From Pseudomonas sediminis (lineage in GTDB: Bacteria > Pseudomonadota > Gammaproteobacteria > Pseudomonadales > Pseudomonadaceae), in NCBI RefSeq assembly GCF_039555755.1, contig NZ_CP154631.1, positions 3,968,001 through 4,032,000 of the forward strand: a DNA stretch of 64,000 bases. The letters run 5' to 3'. The notes under the pieces were generated by a model. The model saw only the letters and a list, made by a program, of their open reading frames with translations. It did no database searches and had not been told where the DNA came from. Positions 3,956 through 45,937 of this stretch are shown piece by piece. The translations under genes and the position numbers were made by a program. Position 1 is the first letter of the stretch, and every line of letters starts with the position of its first letter.

Positions 3956-4219
3956 CGTGTTCCCCTTGAGGTGGAGTTTTCCATAAAGAGCAATTCCCCA
4001 ACTGCGGGAAATTAGCCGGCGTACATACTACCTATTACTTTTAGTAAGTAAACGGAGCCAGGGCAAGAGTTGCAGGTTTTTTTTCTTCGAGCTGGGCGCT
4101 GAAGGGTAGAGCCTGCGCGGGCTGGCTAAAAAACAGCCAGTTACGTAATCCATACAGTGTCGCGATTGTTCGAACTGTTATAACTGTCCCGACGTTGAAA
4201 CTAAAACAATAAAGAGGGG

Positions 4220-34409: not shown

Positions 34410-35153
34410 TCACGCATGCAGGAGCAGGGGCATGCTGAACTGGGTGCTGGCGCGGGCGACTTCGCCGATCACCAGAATGGCCGGGCTTTTCAGAGCGAAG
34501 GCCATCGCGTCGTCCTGCATCGTTGCGAGGTGGCTGCGGCATTCGCGTTGCTCGGGCAGCGAGGCGTTCTCGATCATCGCTACCGGCATCTCATTGCTCA
34601 TGCCGCCAGCGAGCAGGCCGTCACGAATGTCCGCCAACTTGGCCACGCCCATATAGACCACCAATGTCGTGCCGCTTTTGGCCAGGGCTGTCCAGTTCAA
34701 TGAACTGTCATCCTGAGTATGGGCAGTGACCAAGGTGACGCCGCGAGCCACACCGCGCAAGGTTAAAGGAATACCGCAGTTGGTGGCGCCAGCCAGCCCA
34801 GCGGTAATGCCGTTGACCATTTCCACGTCGATTCCATGTTCGCCGAGCCAGTCGGCTTCCTCGCTGCCGCGACCAAAGATGCACGGATCGCCGCCTTTCA
34901 GGCGCACCACGCATTTGCCCTGGCGTGCGTAGCGCAGCATCAAACGATGGATGAAGGCCTGCGGGGTGGAGCGACAGCCGCCGCGCTTGCCTACCGAGAC
35001 GATACGCGCGCTGGGGCAATGTTCGAGCACGGCCGGGTTGACCAGATCGTCGATCATCACGATCTCGGCCTGCTTCAGCGCCTTGACCGCCTTGAGCGTC
35101 AGCAACTCGGGATCACCAGGGCCAGCGCCTACCAGCCAGACTTTTGCATTCAT
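34410..35153 (-). CDS. cobA: Uroporphyrinogen-III C-methyltransferase CobA (SUMT)
   Basis: 247 residues from the ATG at 35153 (MNAKVWLVGAGPGDPELLTLKA). SUMT signatures VGAGPGDP, LKGGDPCIFGRGSEEA and the SAM-binding end segment are present. It methylates uroporphyrinogen III to precorrin-2, a precursor of siroheme. Siroheme is the cofactor of NirB encoded in the same direction upstream, so the gene probably belongs to the nitrate assimilation transcript, 81 bp behind the nitrate reductase gene. Confidence 0.95.
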   Translation of the reverse strand: MNAKVWLVGAGPGDPELLTLKAVKALKQAEIVMIDDLVNPAVLEHCPSARIVSVGKRGGCRSTPQAFIHRLMLRYARQGKCVVRLKGGDPCIFGRGSEEADWLGEHGIDVEMVNGITAGLAGATNCGIPLTLRGVARGVTLVTAHTQDDSSLNWTALAKSGTTLVVYMGVAKLADIRDGLLAGGMSNEMPVAMIENASLPEQRECRSHLATMQDDAMAFALKSPAILVIGEVARASTQFSMPLLLHA

Positions 35154-35234
35154 CTTTACCACCTCTCGTTGGGTGTCGCGGGGCCGCCTAGGTCGTGCGC
35201 ACCGAATTTTTTGCAGCGGTGCGCGCACCGCACC

Positions 35235-37952
35235 CTACGCGTGTCTCGCCACTGACTGCTGGGCCAGCAGGCGTTTGATTTCGGGTACACAGGAGCCACA
35301 ACTGGTGCCGCATTTGAGCGTCTGCTTTAACCCATCCAGGTCCAGGCCGCGTTCGATGCCGACACGCACCGTGCCTTCGCTGACGTTCAGGCAGTTGCAC
35401 AGGATCTTGCCGCCCAGCGTGGTGCTGGAATTGCCTGGCGGCGCGGAGACTGGCGCAAGCAGCCAGCGACGCAGGTCGGCATTGGCCTGACCTTCCAGCC
35501 ACAGGCTTCTGAGCCATTCGCTGGCGGCGGTTTCACCGGCCAGACGAATGCTGACGATACGGCCATCCTCGATACGCACACGTTTGCCTACCGCACGGCG
35601 CGGGTCGTCGTAGGCCAGCACCGGTCCTTCATTCAGGCGCAGCAGCCGGTCGATCTGCGCTAACAGCTCGGGCGGCGGCGACACTGCGCTGGCGGCGCGG
35701 ATCAGCAGAGCGGGGCGCTCGCGACCGGTGGGGGTGAGGCTGGCGTAGGCGAACGCTTCGAACAGCGGACGCAGCGCCTCGAAGCGGCTCTGTACGTCAC
35801 CCTCGACCAGGGCGAACAGCTGCCAGGGCAGTTCCACCTTGTCCACCTCGACACCGGCATGCTTGAGCTCCGGCTGTTTGGACAGTGGATCGAAGGCCGG
35901 CTGGGTCAAGACATTGGTGCCCAGGCCTTTGAGGAAGCGGTCGCCCCAGTGCATCGGCAGCCAGGCCTGACCGGGACGCACCGACTCGTCGGCCTGCACC
36001 GGCAGGATCAGGCTGCCACGGCGGCTGCGCAGTTGGATCAGGTCGCCGTCCTGCAGGCGCCGACGCCGCAGTTCATCCGGGTGCAGGCCGAGCACGGCAG
36101 ATTCGACATGGCCGAACAGGCGTGCGGCGGTGCTGGTACGGCTCATACCGTGCCACTGATCGCGCAGGCGGCCGGTGTTGAGGGTGAGCGAATAGCGCGC
36201 CTCGCGCTTTTCCTTCGGCGCGCGGTACGGGTCGGCATGGAACTGAGCGCGCCCGCTGACGGTGGGAAAATTCCCGTCGGAATAGAGGCGTTGGGTGCCC
36301 TGGTACGCGCCGACCGGGAACGGCCACTGCTGAGGACCTTGATCATCCAACAGCGCGTAGCTCAGCCCCGAGAGGTCGAGGTCGCGCTTGGCGGTCAGGT
36401 GTTTGTATTCCTCGAACAGCGCCTCGCTGCTGGAGAAGTCGAACAGGCTTGGCAGGCTGGGGCGGAGCAAAATTTCCAGGCGACGAGCAAAGTCGCAGGT
36501 GATCGACCAATCGGGCCGCGCCTCTGCGGGCGCTGGCACGGCGCGGCGCACATGGCTGACGCGGCGCTCGGAGTTGGTCACCGTGCCTTCCTTCTCGCCC
36601 CAGCTGGCGGCCGGCAGCAGCAGGTCGGCGTAGCGGCAGGTCTCGGTGGTGAAGAAGGCTTCCTGCACCACGACGAAGGGGCAGGCGGCCAGGGCCTCGT
36701 GCACTTTGCTCTGGTTCGGCAGCGACTGCGCCGGGTTGGTGCAGGCGATCCACAGCGCCTTGATGCGGCCGTCGTGCACCGCATCGAACAACTCGATGGC
36801 GGACAGGCCGGGCGTCTCCGGCAGTGCATCGACGCCCCAGTAGGCGGCGACTTCGGCACGGTGTTCGGCGTTGCCGGCCTCGCGGTGGCCCGGCAGCAGG
36901 TTGCTCAGGCTGCCGGTCTCGCGGCCGCCCATGGCATTGGGCTGGCCGGTCAGCGAGAAGGGGCCGGCGCCGGGCTTGCCGATCTGCCCGGTGGCCAGGT
37001 GCAGGTTGATCAGTGCGCTGTTCTTGGCGCTGCCGGCGCTGGACTGGTTCAGCCCCATGCACCACAGCGAGAGGAAGGAGGGCGCTCGGCCGATCAGCTC
37101 GGCGCAGCGCTGCAGATCGTCCAGACTGATGCCGCAAAGGTCGGCGGTGACTGCCGGGCTGTAGTCGCGCACCAGCTTCTTCAGTGCTTCGAAGCCTTCT
37201 GTGTGGGCGTCGATATAGGCGCGGTTGATCCAGCCCTCCCACAGCAGGATATGCAGGATGCCGTGAAACAGCGCCACATCGGTGCCGGGCAGAATCGCCA
37301 GATGCAGGTCGGCCAGCTCGCAAGTGTCGGTGCGCCGCGGGTCAATGACGATCACCTTCATCTCTGGGCGGCGCGCCTTGGCTTCTTCCAGACGGCGGAA
37401 CAGCACCGGGTGGGCGTAGGCCATGTTGGAGCCGGCGATCAGCAGGCAGTCGCTCTGCTCGATGTCTTCATAGCTGCAGGGCGGGGCGTCGGCGCCGAGG
37501 CTGCGCTTGTAGCCGACCACCGCCGAGCTCATGCACAGGCGCGAATTGCTGTCGATATTGTTGGTTCCCACCAATGCTCTGGCCAGCTTGTTGAAGGCGT
37601 AGTAGTCCTCGGTCAGCAGCTGGCCGGAGATATAGAAGGCGACGCTGTCCGGGCCGTGCTCGCGGATGGTCTCGGCGAACACCGCCGCGGCATGGTCCAG
37701 GGCGCTGTTCCAGTCCGTGCGGGTACGGGCCAGGCCCTTGCCCAGACGCAGTTCGGGATGGAGGGCGCGGGCATCGAGGTCGCCGGTCAGGTGCAGGGTC
37801 GAACCCTTGCTGCACAGTTTGCCGAAGTTGGCCGGGTGGCTGGGATCGCCGGCGACGCCGAGGATCTGCTCGCCGTCGTGCTCGATCAGCACGCCGCAGC
37901 CCACGCCGCAGTAGCAGCAGGTGGAGGCGGTGACTTGAGTGGGGCTGGCCAT
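35235..37952 (-). CDS. Assimilatory nitrate reductase catalytic subunit (molybdopterin, Fe-S)
   Basis: 905 residues. The N-terminus has a 4Fe-4S motif (CCYCGVGCGV ... GKLCSKG). The molybdopterin domain follows with LTGQPNAMGGRETG, and a molydopterin dinucleotide-binding domain lies at about residues 590-700. A BFD-like 2Fe-2S domain closes the protein (CNCLNVSEG ... CGTSCGSCVPEIKRL). This single-chain NasA/NasC type reduces nitrate to nitrite in the cytoplasm. Next gene upstream is nirD. Symbols vary (nasA, nasC), so none is given. Confidence 0.95.
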   Translation of the reverse strand: MASPTQVTASTCCYCGVGCGVLIEHDGEQILGVAGDPSHPANFGKLCSKGSTLHLTGDLDARALHPELRLGKGLARTRTDWNSALDHAAAVFAETIREHGPDSVAFYISGQLLTEDYYAFNKLARALVGTNNIDSNSRLCMSSAVVGYKRSLGADAPPCSYEDIEQSDCLLIAGSNMAYAHPVLFRRLEEAKARRPEMKVIVIDPRRTDTCELADLHLAILPGTDVALFHGILHILLWEGWINRAYIDAHTEGFEALKKLVRDYSPAVTADLCGISLDDLQRCAELIGRAPSFLSLWCMGLNQSSAGSAKNSALINLHLATGQIGKPGAGPFSLTGQPNAMGGRETGSLSNLLPGHREAGNAEHRAEVAAYWGVDALPETPGLSAIELFDAVHDGRIKALWIACTNPAQSLPNQSKVHEALAACPFVVVQEAFFTTETCRYADLLLPAASWGEKEGTVTNSERRVSHVRRAVPAPAEARPDWSITCDFARRLEILLRPSLPSLFDFSSSEALFEEYKHLTAKRDLDLSGLSYALLDDQGPQQWPFPVGAYQGTQRLYSDGNFPTVSGRAQFHADPYRAPKEKREARYSLTLNTGRLRDQWHGMSRTSTAARLFGHVESAVLGLHPDELRRRRLQDGDLIQLRSRRGSLILPVQADESVRPGQAWLPMHWGDRFLKGLGTNVLTQPAFDPLSKQPELKHAGVEVDKVELPWQLFALVEGDVQSRFEALRPLFEAFAYASLTPTGRERPALLIRAASAVSPPPELLAQIDRLLRLNEGPVLAYDDPRRAVGKRVRIEDGRIVSIRLAGETAASEWLRSLWLEGQANADLRRWLLAPVSAPPGNSSTTLGGKILCNCLNVSEGTVRVGIERGLDLDGLKQTLKCGTSCGSCVPEIKRLLAQQSVARHA

Positions 37953-38013: not shown

Positions 38014-38340
38014 TCAGGCGCACTTCGCGGCGGTGTTTAGGGCCAACAGCACGCGGCCATTCTCGACCCGGGCGTGGTGCCGATGAGCGCAGCCCACGTC
38101 CGGCGCCACGGCATCGCCGGACTCCAGCTCGATCTGCCAGTTGTGCAGCGGGCAGGCCACGCGCTTGCCGTAGATCAAGCCTTGGGATAGCGGGCCGCCC
38201 TTGTGCGGGCAGCGGTCGTCGAGAGCGAAGACCTCGTCGCCTGCGGTACGGAAGATGGCGATGTCACCCTTGGGGCCGCTGACGATGCGCGAGCCGAGCA
38301 GGTTGATCTCGTCCAGGGCGCAGATATCCAGCCAGTTCAT
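38014..38340 (-). CDS. nirD: Nitrite reductase small subunit NirD (Rieske-type)
   Basis: 108 residues. The Rieske-like fold has CPHKGGPLSQG and CPLHNWQIEL, so Cys and His ligands for a 2Fe-2S cluster seem complete, whereas many NirD proteins have lost them. It partners NirB in reducing nitrite to ammonium. The ATG overlaps the nirB stop codon by four bases. Confidence 0.95.
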   Translation of the reverse strand: MNWLDICALDEINLLGSRIVSGPKGDIAIFRTAGDEVFALDDRCPHKGGPLSQGLIYGKRVACPLHNWQIELESGDAVAPDVGCAHRHHARVENGRVLLALNTAAKCA

Positions 38341-40793
38341 ACGGTGGCCTCCTCGATTTGCACCACCTTGATGGTGTCGAACTCTTTCTTCAGTTGCGGC
38401 GTCTCGATGCGCTCCTTCCACGGGTCCTGCTCGAACGACAGGGCATAGTGCAGGCGAGCGGCCAGGGCCTTGCGATTGGCTTCGTCTTCCAGCACCGCCT
38501 TCTTGATGTGCTCCATGCCGACACGCTGCATGTAGTGCACGGTGCGCTCTAGGTAGAAGGCTTCTTCGCGGTAGAGCTGGAGGAAGGCGGCGTTGTATTC
38601 GCGCACTTCCTCGGCGGTCTTCACCTTGACGAAGAACTCGGCGACCTCGGTCTTGATCCCGCCGTTGCCGCCGATGTACAGCTCGAAGCCCGAGTCCACA
38701 CCGATGATGCCGACATCCTTGATGCCGGCTTCGGCGCAGTTGCGCGGGCAGCCGGAAACCGCCAGCTTGACCTTGTGCGGCGACCACATATTGAACAGGT
38801 CGTGTTCCAGGTCGATACCGAGCTGGGTCGAGTTCTGCGTACCGAAGCGGCAGAACTCGCTGCCCACGCAGGTCTTCACGGTACGGATGGATTTGCCGTA
38901 GGCGTGACCGGAGGGCATATCCAGCTCTTTCCACACTGCCGGCAGGTCTTCCTTCTTGATACCCAGCAGATCGATGCGCTGGCCGCCGGTGACCTTGACC
39001 ATGGGCACCTTGTACTTGTCGGCCACATCGGCGATGCGGCGCAGCTCAGACGGATTGGTCACGCCGCCCCACATGCGCGGCACCACGGAGTAGGTGCCGT
39101 CTTTCTGGATATTGGCGTGGGCACGCTCGTTGATCAGGCGCGACTGCGGGTCGTCCTTGGCCTCGCCCGGCCAGGTGGAAATCAGGTAGTAGTTGAGCGC
39201 CGGGCGGCAGGTGGCGCAGCCGTTGGGCGTACTCCAGTTGAGAAACGTCATGGTCTGCGCCATGGAGGTCAGGTGTTGCTCGCGAATCGCCTTGCGGATC
39301 TGCCCGTGGTTCAGGTCGGAGCAGCCGCAGATGGCCTTCTCGCTCTTGGGCTTGACGTCAGCGGCGCCGCCGACGGTGCTGATCAGTATCTGCTCCACCA
39401 GGCCGGCGCAGGAGCCGCAGGAGCTGGCTGCCTTGGTGTGCTTCTTCACCTCGTCGACCGAGAACAGCCCGTTCGCCTGGATCGCCTTGACGATGGTGCC
39501 CTTGCACACGCCGTTGCAGCCGCAGATTTCCATGCTGTCAGGCATGTTGGCGGTCTTGTCGGCGCCCTGATGGCCGACGTCGCCGATGGCACCTTCGCCA
39601 AACATCAGGTGGTCGCGAATCTCGCTGACGTTGTGGTTCTCGCGGATCTGGCGGAAGTACCAGCCACCGTCGGCGGTGTCGCCGTACAGGCAGGCGCCGA
39701 CCAGCACGTCATCCTTGATCACCAGCTTCTTGTATACGCCGCCGATGGGGTCAGAGAGGGTGATGGTCTCGGTGCCTTCTCCTCCCATGAATTCGCCAGC
39801 GGAGAACAGATCAATGCCGGTGACCTTGAGCTTGGTCGAGGTCACCGAACCCTGGTAGCGCGAGTAGCCGAGCTGGGCCAGGTGGTTGGCGCAGACCTTG
39901 GCCTGCTCGAACAGCGGCGCCACCAGGCCGTAAGCGATGCCGCGGTGGCTGGCACATTCGCCGATGGCGTAGATGCGCGGGTCATAGGTCTGCAGGGTGT
40001 CGTTGACCAGGATACCGCGGTTGCAGGCGATGCCGGCGCTCTCGGCCAGCTCGCTGTTGGGGCGGATGCCGGCAGCCATCACCACCAGGTCGGCTGGGAT
40101 CACCTCACCATCCTTGAACTTCACTGCACAGACGCGGCCTTCGCCGTTGTCCAGCAGCTCGGCGGTGTGCTTGGGCAGGAGAAACTTCAGACCACGGTCT
40201 TCCAGGGACTTTTGCAGCAGCTCGCCGGCGGTGCGATCAAGCTGACGCTCCAGCAGCCAGTCGCCGATATGCACCACGGTGACGTCCATGCCGCGCAGCT
40301 TGAGGCCGTTGGCAGCTTCCAGGCCGAGCAGGCCGCCGCCGATGACCACCGCGTGCTTGTGAGTCTTGGCGGTGTCCATCATGGTCTGGGTGTCAGCGAT
40401 GTCGCGGTAGCCGATCACACCGTCCAGGTCCTTACCCGGAATCGGCAGGATGAAAGGGTTGGAACCGGTGGCGATTAGCAGACGGTCATATTCGGCCTCG
40501 CTGCCGTCGTCGGCGATCACCCGGCGCGCCTTGCGGTCAATCTTGACCACCTTGCGCCCGAGCAGCAGCTTGATGCCGTTATCCGCGTACCAGTTGAGAT
40601 CGTTGAGCACGATCTCCTCGAAGGTCTGCTCGCCGGCCAGCACCGGTGAGAGCAGGATGCGGTTGTAGTTGGGGTGCGGCTCGGCGCCGAACACGGTGAT
40701 GTCGTAAAGATCGGGAGCGAGCTTGAGCAGCTCTTCGAGGGTGCGCACACCCGCCATGCCGTTGCCGATCATCACCAGCTTGAGTTTTTGCAT
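38337..40793 (-). CDS. nirB: Nitrite reductase large subunit NirB (NAD(P)H, FAD, siroheme)
   Basis: 818 residues from the ATG at 40793 (MQKLKLVMIGNGMAG), preceded by CAGGAG; an upstream ATG at 40814 adds seven residues and lacks a ribosome site. FAD domain at the start, NAD-binding GGGLLGLEAA near 173, two BFD-type cysteine clusters (CGCNGVCKG, SCGSCAG), and the siroheme/4Fe-4S ligands CVGSEFCRFG and SGCPRNCAEA near the end. It reduces nitrite to ammonium with NADH. Expression is probably set by the sigma-54 promoter and antitermination leader upstream. Confidence 0.96.
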   Translation of the reverse strand: MQKLKLVMIGNGMAGVRTLEELLKLAPDLYDITVFGAEPHPNYNRILLSPVLAGEQTFEEIVLNDLNWYADNGIKLLLGRKVVKIDRKARRVIADDGSEAEYDRLLIATGSNPFILPIPGKDLDGVIGYRDIADTQTMMDTAKTHKHAVVIGGGLLGLEAANGLKLRGMDVTVVHIGDWLLERQLDRTAGELLQKSLEDRGLKFLLPKHTAELLDNGEGRVCAVKFKDGEVIPADLVVMAAGIRPNSELAESAGIACNRGILVNDTLQTYDPRIYAIGECASHRGIAYGLVAPLFEQAKVCANHLAQLGYSRYQGSVTSTKLKVTGIDLFSAGEFMGGEGTETITLSDPIGGVYKKLVIKDDVLVGACLYGDTADGGWYFRQIRENHNVSEIRDHLMFGEGAIGDVGHQGADKTANMPDSMEICGCNGVCKGTIVKAIQANGLFSVDEVKKHTKAASSCGSCAGLVEQILISTVGGAADVKPKSEKAICGCSDLNHGQIRKAIREQHLTSMAQTMTFLNWSTPNGCATCRPALNYYLISTWPGEAKDDPQSRLINERAHANIQKDGTYSVVPRMWGGVTNPSELRRIADVADKYKVPMVKVTGGQRIDLLGIKKEDLPAVWKELDMPSGHAYGKSIRTVKTCVGSEFCRFGTQNSTQLGIDLEHDLFNMWSPHKVKLAVSGCPRNCAEAGIKDVGIIGVDSGFELYIGGNGGIKTEVAEFFVKVKTAEEVREYNAAFLQLYREEAFYLERTVHYMQRVGMEHIKKAVLEDEANRKALAARLHYALSFEQDPWKERIETPQLKKEFDTIKVVQIEEATV

Positions 40794-40854
40794 GCCGGCC
40801 ATCTCCTGAGTCATGGATCACGGAAAAAGGTGGCTGCCAAAAATGGCAGGCCAG

Positions 40855-40900
40855 AAAAACAAAAAAGGCGTCCCGCTAGTCACCTAGCGAGGACGCCTTT
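40855..40900 (-). terminator. Leader terminator upstream of nirB
   Basis: On the minus strand AAAGGCGTCC, CGCTAG, a GTGA loop, CTAGCG and GGACGCCTTT form a 17-bp stem with one mismatch. It is followed by TTTGTTTTT and lies between the nirB promoter and the ATG. Full-length transcription must therefore read through it. Confidence 0.85.
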
Positions 40901-40952
40901 GTCCTATCCCGTTCTATCGGGAAGCGCGCTGCTCGTCGTTGAGCCGCGCGCT
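40890..40952 (-). promoter_or_regulatory. ANTAR (NasT-type) antitermination leader of nirBD: tandem hexaloop hairpins
   Basis: Three contiguous hairpins on the minus-strand RNA each expose a six-base loop with A at position 1 and G at position 4. H1 at 40923-40952 has stem GCTC/GAGC extended by seven more pairs, loop AACGAC. H2 at 40907-40922 has TCCCG/CGGGA, loop ATAGAA. H3 at 40890-40905 has AGGAC/GTCCT, loop AAAGGC. H3 uses the 5' arm of the terminator, so the two structures exclude each other. This is the pattern bound by ANTAR proteins such as NasT. Confidence 0.8.
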
Positions 40953-40976
40953 TTAATCAAGTTGTACGGCTAGCAA

Positions 40977-40992
40977 TGCAGCGCTTGTGCCA
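40977..40992 (-). promoter_or_regulatory. Sigma-54 promoter of nirBD
   Basis: Minus strand TGGCACAAGCGCTGCA matches the consensus TGGCAC-N5-TTGCA in all but one position. It lies just upstream of the hexaloop hairpins, so the leader begins about 12 bases further. Nitrogen control through NtrC and RpoN is expected. Confidence 0.75.
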
Positions 40993-41105
40993 ATTTGCCA
41001 AAACCGCAGATTCAGCGGGTTTCAGGGCGCGACATCACCGTACAGCGCTGCTGCGGGTGCACCTTTTCAAGGCCATGAGCGCCGATTTGGTGCGGCGCTG
41101 GCCAA

Positions 41106-45802: not shown

Positions 45803-45862
45803 CAAAAAACGGCGTACGCCAGGCCACCTCGATGAGAGGAAGGTGACCTGACGGACGCCGTT
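45803..45862 (-). terminator. Leader terminator upstream of the nitrate transporter operon
   Basis: On the minus strand AACGGCGT and further blocks (AGG, TCACC) pair with GGTG, CCT and ACGCCGTT, followed by TTTTTGTTT. It stands between the promoter and the binding protein start, so it is an attenuator. Confidence 0.8.
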
Positions 45863-45893
45863 GTCCGTGATCCTCGGCCCGCCACCGTTGGCG
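45851..45893 (-). promoter_or_regulatory. ANTAR (NasT-type) antitermination leader of the nitrate transporter operon
   Basis: Two hairpins in the minus-strand RNA expose A1/G4 hexaloops: P1 at 45880-45893 (CGCC, loop AACGGT, GGCG) and P2 at 45851-45868 (ACGGAC, loop AACGGC, GTCCGT). P2 uses the 5' arm of the following terminator, so binding by NasT would prevent termination. Same design as upstream of nirB. No nasS or nasT gene lies in the window. Confidence 0.8.
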
Positions 45894-45921
45894 TGCTACA
45901 CAGGATGATTGACAGGGACAT

Positions 45922-45937
45922 AGCAAAGGGCTTGCCA
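45922..45937 (-). promoter_or_regulatory. Sigma-54 promoter of the nitrate transporter operon
   Basis: Minus strand TGGCAAGCCCTTTGCT matches the sigma-54 consensus TGGCAC-N5-TTGCW with one change. It precedes the antitermination leader by about 30 bases. The rest of the 378-bp gap (45938-46152) shows no further feature. Confidence 0.75.

Follow-up and report, generated by a model that had tools for sequence, protein, structure and literature searches.

The leader of the nirB operon in Pseudomonas sediminis carries three tandem hairpins with hexanucleotide loops of the ANTAR type (A at position 1 and G at position 4, or A1/G4), the last of which is predicted to compete with an intrinsic terminator. 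We are highly confident that this leader is a NasT-responsive attenuator (NalA/P11) of nirBD-nasA-cobA; the whole statement, in which the middle hairpin (H2) would also act as an accessory third site in a loop-to-loop hand-over, we regard as fairly probable. The attenuator itself is already known as P11/NalA—what appears to be new here is the three-loop reading.

A P11 leader heads the nirB operon

The window is the whole stretch of DNA that was analyzed, 64,000 nt of contig NZ_CP154631.1. On its minus strand, directly upstream of nirB, lies a leader that matches the Rfam family P11 (RF00625) over the full model, at 127.1 bits compared with a gathering score of 70. Matches to Rfam CC1840, ctRNA_pGA1, narK and, on the plus strand, P11 itself also occur on the leader stretch, all below the gathering score. 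Elsewhere in the window, Rfam P14 (RF01669), a Pseudomonas sRNA, has a match at 3994-4140 on the minus strand (58.9 bits). The locus comprises the following features:

41079..41093, minus strand: NtrC-like enhancer site 1, GCACCAAATCGGCGC
41058..41073, minus strand: NtrC-like enhancer site 2, GCCTTGAAAAGGTGCA
40977..40993, minus strand: sigma-54-type -24/-12 promoter, TTGGCAC-N5-CTGCA
38337..40814, minus strand: nirB, nitrite reductase large subunit (TIGR02374, 954.1 bits, cut-off 578.35); the real start is possibly a more internal ATG
38014..38358, minus strand: nirD (TIGR02378, 105.6 bits, cut-off 74.65)
35235..37952, minus strand: assimilatory nitrate reductase, nasA/PA1779-like (molybdopterin oxidoreductase with C-terminal Fer2_BFD), named from operon order; NasA and NasC models both match under their cut-offs
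34410..35228, minus strand: cobA, uroporphyrinogen-III C-methyltransferase (TIGR01469, 302.8 bits, cut-off 185)

In an alignment of 103 leaders, both enhancer sites fall in conserved upstream blocks, and TTGGCAC and CTGC are each more than 80% conserved; we take the former to be NtrC sites and the latter a sigma-54-type promoter, in each case presumably, by their likeness to the consensus. A sequence-only reading had drawn attention to positions 40855..40992 and placed a sigma-54 promoter just upstream, which agrees with this assignment; since the promoter spans 40993-40977, the end of that stretch in fact falls in the -24 element. The P11 leader heads genes in the order nirB-nirD-nasA-cobA, the same gene order as P. 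aeruginosa nirBD-PA1779-cobA, which PMC12830290 names among its references.

Three hexaloop hairpins and a competing terminator

Within the leader, the following structures were recognized:

40923..40952, minus strand: H1, distal ANTAR-type hairpin, loop AACGAC (40940-40935), closing pair C:G; GCTC[AACGAC]GAGC atop a longer stem
40907..40922, minus strand: H2, middle hairpin, loop ATAGAA (40917-40912), closing pair G:C; TCCCG[ATAGAA]CGGGA
40890..40905, minus strand: H3, antiterminator hairpin (P2), loop AAAGGC (40900-40895), closing pair C:G; AGGAC[AAAGGC]GTCCT
40861..40900, minus strand: intrinsic terminator with U-run, AAAGGCGTCC...GGACGCCTTTTTT, fold -28.2 kcal/mol, 98.1% of cells paired

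The loops, order, strand, and coordinates of the three tandem A1/G4 hairpins are all as first described from sequence, and the overlap then claimed between the third hairpin and the terminator is borne out, the loop and 3' arm of H3 forming the terminator 5' arm. Likewise supported is the view that the nirB leader is of the ANTAR/NasT type, with a final hairpin that is mutually exclusive with the terminator and with A1 and G4 conserved in each of the three loops. The element is the known Rfam P11/NalA. Judged by the closing pair, H1 and H3 are C:G and H2 is G:C.

Hairpins with an A1/G4 hexaloop, Watson-Crick closure, and four or more pairs number 56 on the plus strand and 63 on the minus strand of the window, and the nirB leader is the sole triple (non-overlapping hairpins within 75 nt). 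Shuffling rules out a chance origin of the three A1/G4 loops: 40 dinucleotide-shuffled strands gave one triple altogether, and the 75-nt element yielded none when shuffled 5000 times.

The minimum-energy fold comprises H1, H2, and the terminator, with H3 absent (z -6.49), and the terminator state is more stable than a fold in which H3 is enforced (-56.9 versus -44.0 kcal/mol); an RNA ending at the 3' side of H3 is predicted to fold all three hairpins. H3 is, in these folding models, a state competing with the terminator, as expected of a protein-dependent antiterminator. Separately, we rejected a pairing of mainly the H2 5' arm with the terminator 3' arm (CGGGA occurs in both), given that four leader loci (L088, L105, L106, and L110, where L numbers label loci extracted from genomes) have H2 as CCTG/CAGG with, by eye, no matching change in the terminator 3' arm.

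Conservation of the leader across the Pseudomonadaceae

Of 298 Pseudomonadaceae genomes, 224 have a P11 match, 197 of them above the family's cut-off. Across 390 genomes of the order it was found in 20, three of which lie outside the Pseudomonadaceae and score under the cut-off. Having dropped L002 from 148 loci, we took the remaining 147 and, after excluding L139, L144, L145, L148, and L114 for stray or mis-set landmarks (the H3 of L144 has 3 bp), retained 131 distinct cores; these five exclusions apply to the counts of H1/H2 recurrence, H2 loop changes, linker folding, and spacing. The covariation alignment comprised 58 of 59 representatives, L114 being excluded.

A search for covariation in related nirB leaders had been proposed along with the original description, and its outcome favors the hairpins. 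In the 58-row alignment, 99.1% of H3 cells are paired and three of its four pairs show two-sided changes, although few lineages lie behind those changes; H1 has 86% of cells paired with two-sided changes in all four apical pairs, and H2 has 85.4% with two-sided changes in four of five pairs. Jointly, the three hairpins have 90.0% of cells paired, as against at most 55.2% with slid partners, and none of 500 shuffles matched the observed values. The H3 stem GGAC/GTCC is replaced by AGGC/GCCT and GAGC/GCTC, and by GGGC/GCCC in L154, L156, L170, and L174. Because the H3 5' arm lies outside the counted terminator stem, these changes speak for H3 itself, and the nearly complete pairing together with the two-sided changes indicates that H3 is a genuine structural competitor of the terminator.

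H1 is similarly constrained in sequence: its motif CAACG or CAATG occurs in 123 of the 131 distinct leaders. The remainder are L040, which has the loop AAAGAC and so is still A1/G4, and L100, L101, L109, L133, L135, L140, and L141; two others tallied as having H2 only (L034 and L035) nevertheless retain CAACG on a bulged stem. The change counts are rough, coming from a tree of these short leaders made after masking of the H2 loop; for the 103 leaders with H2, H1 changed 1, 2, 3, 4, and 0 times at the closing C and loop positions 1 to 4, and 13 and 20 times at loop positions 5 and 6. As an observation apart, L133, L135, L140, and L141 are P11-like, with H3 and the terminator present and no recognized upstream A1/G4 hexaloop; they are either decayed or under other control.

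The middle hairpin is variable but its loop is constrained

The three-hairpin layout had been thought unusual. It proved to be ordinary in the Pseudomonadaceae, where H1 and a separate A1/G4 H2 occur together in 83 of the 131 distinct leaders. The accompanying claim of an extra hairpin holds insofar as a third A1/G4 loop is present; however, the odd one is not H3, which is the standard P2, but H2, as judged by conservation and closing pair. The H2 closing pair is G:C in 89 of 97 hexaloop cases, as in the nirB leader studied here, whereas selection with NasR yields a C:G closing pair (reported in PMC7496416), and in eutP P1, alteration of the two closing pairs disrupted induction (PMC3369931).

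Since 44 of the 131 distinct leaders have no separate H2 with an A1/G4 loop, NasT control in general does not require H2. L118-L120 and L131 do have a G:C-closed AAAGAC hexaloop, but it overlaps H1 and was not counted as a separate H2; other leaders have at this position the tetraloop AATA (L065), an inserted inner helix (L098 and L104), or another hairpin with CACTGA (L130), and there is no separate H2 hairpin in L118-L122 and L143. Where the H2 loop is present, its positions 1 to 6 changed 7, 21, 18, 3, 3, and 12 times—few changes at 1, 4, and 5, and many at 2, 3, and 6. Given this constraint, all three loops look recognized, although it could instead reflect loop stability. From sequence, then, H1 and H3 are the canonical pair and H2 is an accessory hairpin whose loop is probably recognized as well, which suggests that the third NasT-type loop in the nirB leader also matters.

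Spacing between hairpins, measured from closing base to closing base, is 16 for H1-H2, 10 for H2-H3, and 33 for H1-H3 in the nirB leader; the 83 leaders with H1 and a separate H2 fall within 15-17, 10-12, and 33-35, respectively, with an H2-H3 linker of 1-3 nt. H1-H3 spacing shortens to 27 in L095, where H2 is broken, and to 18-24 in leaders without a separate H2 (L117-L122, L129, L131, and L143), and reaches 47-51 where an inner helix expands the place of H2. We examined linker folding in 157 of 186 leaders (those with a C:G-closed AAnG hexaloop of at least three pairs): at a threshold of -3 kcal/mol or lower, 117 of 122 linkers longer than 22 nt fold, compared to 2 of 35 linkers of 22 nt or less, with the proviso that long linkers fold more readily anyway (mean z about -1.1).

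These patterns bear on two other readings of H2. It might be a mere structural spacer that shortens the path from H1 to H3 with a loop unread by NasT, a reading that we think unlikely but that deserves weight: the gap is filled by a non-ANTAR loop in several leaders (L065, L098, L104, and L130), long linkers usually fold, and H1 lies 18-24 nt from H3 in the leaders listed above as having no separate H2, while the low rate of change at loop positions 1, 4, and 5 would be needless for a spacer. It is doubtful, too, that the working P1-P2 pair consists of H2 and H3, with H1 as an additional landing site upstream. The closing pair of H2 is mostly G:C and H2 often lacks its own A1/G4 loop, whereas the H1 motif is nearly always kept, and H2-H3 spacings of 10-12 are at or under the shortest near pair (12, compared to 10 in the nirB leader) among the 55 other NasT-type leaders described below; this must be set against the position of H2 directly before H3, which is the place of P1 in other NasT-type leaders and the textbook layout, the conservation of its loop positions 1 and 4, and the two leaders (L100 and L101) that have lost the H1 hexaloop and carry AACGAA or AGCGAA as the H2 loop.

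NasT co-occurs with the leader

The sole ANTAR match in the genome is a 198-aa receiver-ANTAR protein resembling NasT and adjoining a NasS-like ORF. NasT was present in 20 of 20 P11-bearing genomes tested from the same genus (E < 1e-107), and in 16 of 20 tested genomes without P11, where one copy (genome G220) has an internal stop. Among the genomes without P11, a leader match to a model built from P11-type leaders (R1; E <= 1e-3) was found in 13 of the 16 with NasT and in none of the 4 without it, though by the rule used H3 plus terminator was not found in 10 of 20 R1 matches from P11-less genomes.

NasT-type leaders in other families and before nrtA

At class level, model R1 matched in 40 of 369 genomes, including 2 from Pseudomonadaceae, and at phylum level in 52 of 398, including 16 from Pseudomonadaceae; as the model was built from P11-type leaders, motifs like H1 and H3 in its matches are there partly by construction. 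Besides the main P11 leaders, 55 of 79 loci, some of them second loci in Pseudomonadaceae, have a C:G-closed A1/G4 hexaloop overlapping a terminator; the other 24 showed no H3 plus terminator by the rule used and were omitted from the count of upstream hexaloops. Nearby tblastn matches to the nitrate-operon or NasT/NasS proteins of the window were found for 47 of the 55 as opposed to 10 of the 24 (for L243, cobA alone). Weak R1 matches elsewhere in the same genome (L180 and L181) were rejected, having no H3 plus terminator.

Classified by upstream hexaloop (C:G-closed, A1/G4, at least four pairs), the 55 leaders comprise 19 with one near, 8 with near and far, 16 with far only, and 12 with none. 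An extra upstream hexaloop thus occurs in 8 of 27 leaders with a near hexaloop, compared to 0.38 expected from shuffles. These eight (L157, L161, L162, L174, L177, L196, L208, and L236) each represent a different family; six of them have AACGGC, AATGGC, or AAAGGC as the extra loop, whereas that of L162, ACGGAT, fits the consensus poorly, and the extra loop of L163, with 3 pairs, was excluded from the count. In these leaders, the extra loop lies 27-36 nt upstream of the near loop, versus 16 in the nirB leader, so the three-loop designs of other families and of the nirB leader may have arisen separately.

The window itself contains a second NasT-type leader, found by hand, with two hairpins before nrtA:

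45804..45937, minus strand: nrtA leader, with sigma-54-like TGGCAAGCCCTTTGCT at 45937-45922
45889-45884, minus strand: P1 loop AACGGT
45862-45857, minus strand: P2 loop AACGGC
45862-45804, minus strand: terminator

It has only two hexaloops, spaced 20, and its lowest-energy fold shows the terminator but draws the top of P1 differently; it is absent from the R1 matches at E <= 1 and from the Rfam matches. The terminator-overlapping loop is AACGGC rather than AAAGGC in L163, L177, L227, L236, L238, L243, and the nrtA leader, and the terminator 3' side reads GCCGTT, matching that loop, in L227, L243, and the nrtA leader.

Four loci also match the Rfam narK RNA (RF03032): L222 (483-549), L228 (481-550), L229 (158-230, minus strand), and L233 (157-226, minus strand). 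They carry CAACGGCG or CAATG (L222, L228, and L233) or CAACGC (L229), and all four carry CGACAAAGGCG; in motif content, the narK RNA resembles two-hairpin leaders of the NasT type, which would link this Rfam family to NasT control. L229 and L233 each contain a further NasT-type leader, on the strand opposite to the narK RNA match.

A proposed mechanism and its implications

The scheme that we favor draws its ANTAR binding rules and NasS/NasT logic from published papers and combines them with the observed anatomy, conservation, H3 covariation, and presence and co-occurrence of NasT. When nitrogen is short, transcription would start from the sigma-54/NtrC promoter. Without nitrate or nitrite, NasS would hold NasT, and the nascent RNA would fold into H1, H2, and the terminator. 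With nitrate, freed NasT would bind the hexaloop hairpins as they emerge and stabilize H3, permitting read-through into nirB. H1, C:G closed with AACG, would be the canonical upstream site and H3 would be P2, whereas H2 would act between them as an accessory site, shortening the gap and so keeping the two within reach. We infer contact between NasT and H2, and with it a hand-over in which the NasT dimer would be passed from H1 to H2 to H3, H2 with its conserved A1 and G4 probably being a stepping stone. Two binding registers or a stronger response, as raised in the sequence-only reading, are possible consequences of the third loop.

It is very improbable that P11 is mainly a trans-acting small RNA whose hairpins serve that role—Rfam describes P11 as a Pseudomonas sRNA, and a response of C. 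elegans to P. aeruginosa P11 has been reported (PMC12080996), but PMC11942167 reports a failure to replicate the inheritance claims, and the place before nirB, the competition of H3 with the terminator, and the co-occurrence with NasT fit a cis attenuator. The cis and trans roles are compatible, not exclusive.

More tentatively, and with less than even confidence, we suggest a general three-loop class of NasT attenuator, with a distal canonical hexaloop, a middle hairpin with a canonical or noncanonical loop, and a terminator-overlapping hexaloop, between which the dimer would be relayed as each leaves RNA polymerase, such that nirBD would be tuned unlike the two-loop nrtABC under the same NasT. 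If such a class is real, the extra loop would lengthen the decision window or permit two registers. The three-loop nirB and two-loop nrtA leaders, which share a genome and presumably a single NasT, form a natural test pair for the way in which an ANTAR dimer, touching a single hexaloop at any moment, makes use of a tandem pair. Our results also suggest that the two-hairpin and linker-length rules used in searches for ANTAR targets are too narrow.

Comparison with known systems

The closest relative is NalA/P11 (RF00625), the leader of Pseudomonas nirBD-PA1779-cobA, which shares the operon order, the full-model covariance match, and the sigma-54-type promoter; nothing was found that separates this copy from it. 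According to a review (PMC12830290), where the leader is named NalA, NasT binds NalA and permits nirBD transcription. Among the papers listed by our literature searches, none was seen to describe three hexaloops in a NasT leader; as the primary NalA papers (Romeo 2012, Nie 2024) lay beyond that scope, we do not claim absence.

ANTAR targets are described as A1/G4 hexaloops with the last hairpin overlapping the 5' side of a terminator (PMC3369931). The known cases eutP/EutV, nasF/NasR, and amiE/AmiR have two loops, whereas the nirB leader has three, with the middle hairpin G:C closed; the narK RNA likewise has two, with the pairing checks covering L222 and L228. The H1-H2 spacing of 16 resembles that of eutP (17, from residue numbers A29 and A53; PMC3369931), but the H2-H3 and H1-H3 spacings of 10 and 33 do not, and lie outside the EutV window: the eut linker criterion is about 5-12 nt, and EutV antitermination was impaired with a 3-nt or 14-nt linker (PMC3369931) and by 20 added nt (PMC8934654). 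In a survey of ANTAR RNAs from actinobacteria, however, linkers of 2-25 nt were accepted (PMC8164766).

In the nasA leader of Paracoccus denitrificans, which is controlled by NasS/NasT and in that respect is like the nirB leader, two hairpins are discussed, of which mutation of HI severely lowered activity and mutation of HII had little effect with nitrate (PMC5424462). EutX/Rli55 is reported to have an additional single hexaloop with G4 besides its dual motif (PMC8934654), but EutX sequesters EutV, whereas the extra loop of the nirB leader lies within the cis leader, between the other two. For the EutV dimer, binding of one hexaloop at a time, P1 and then P2, has been proposed from structure (PMC8934654).
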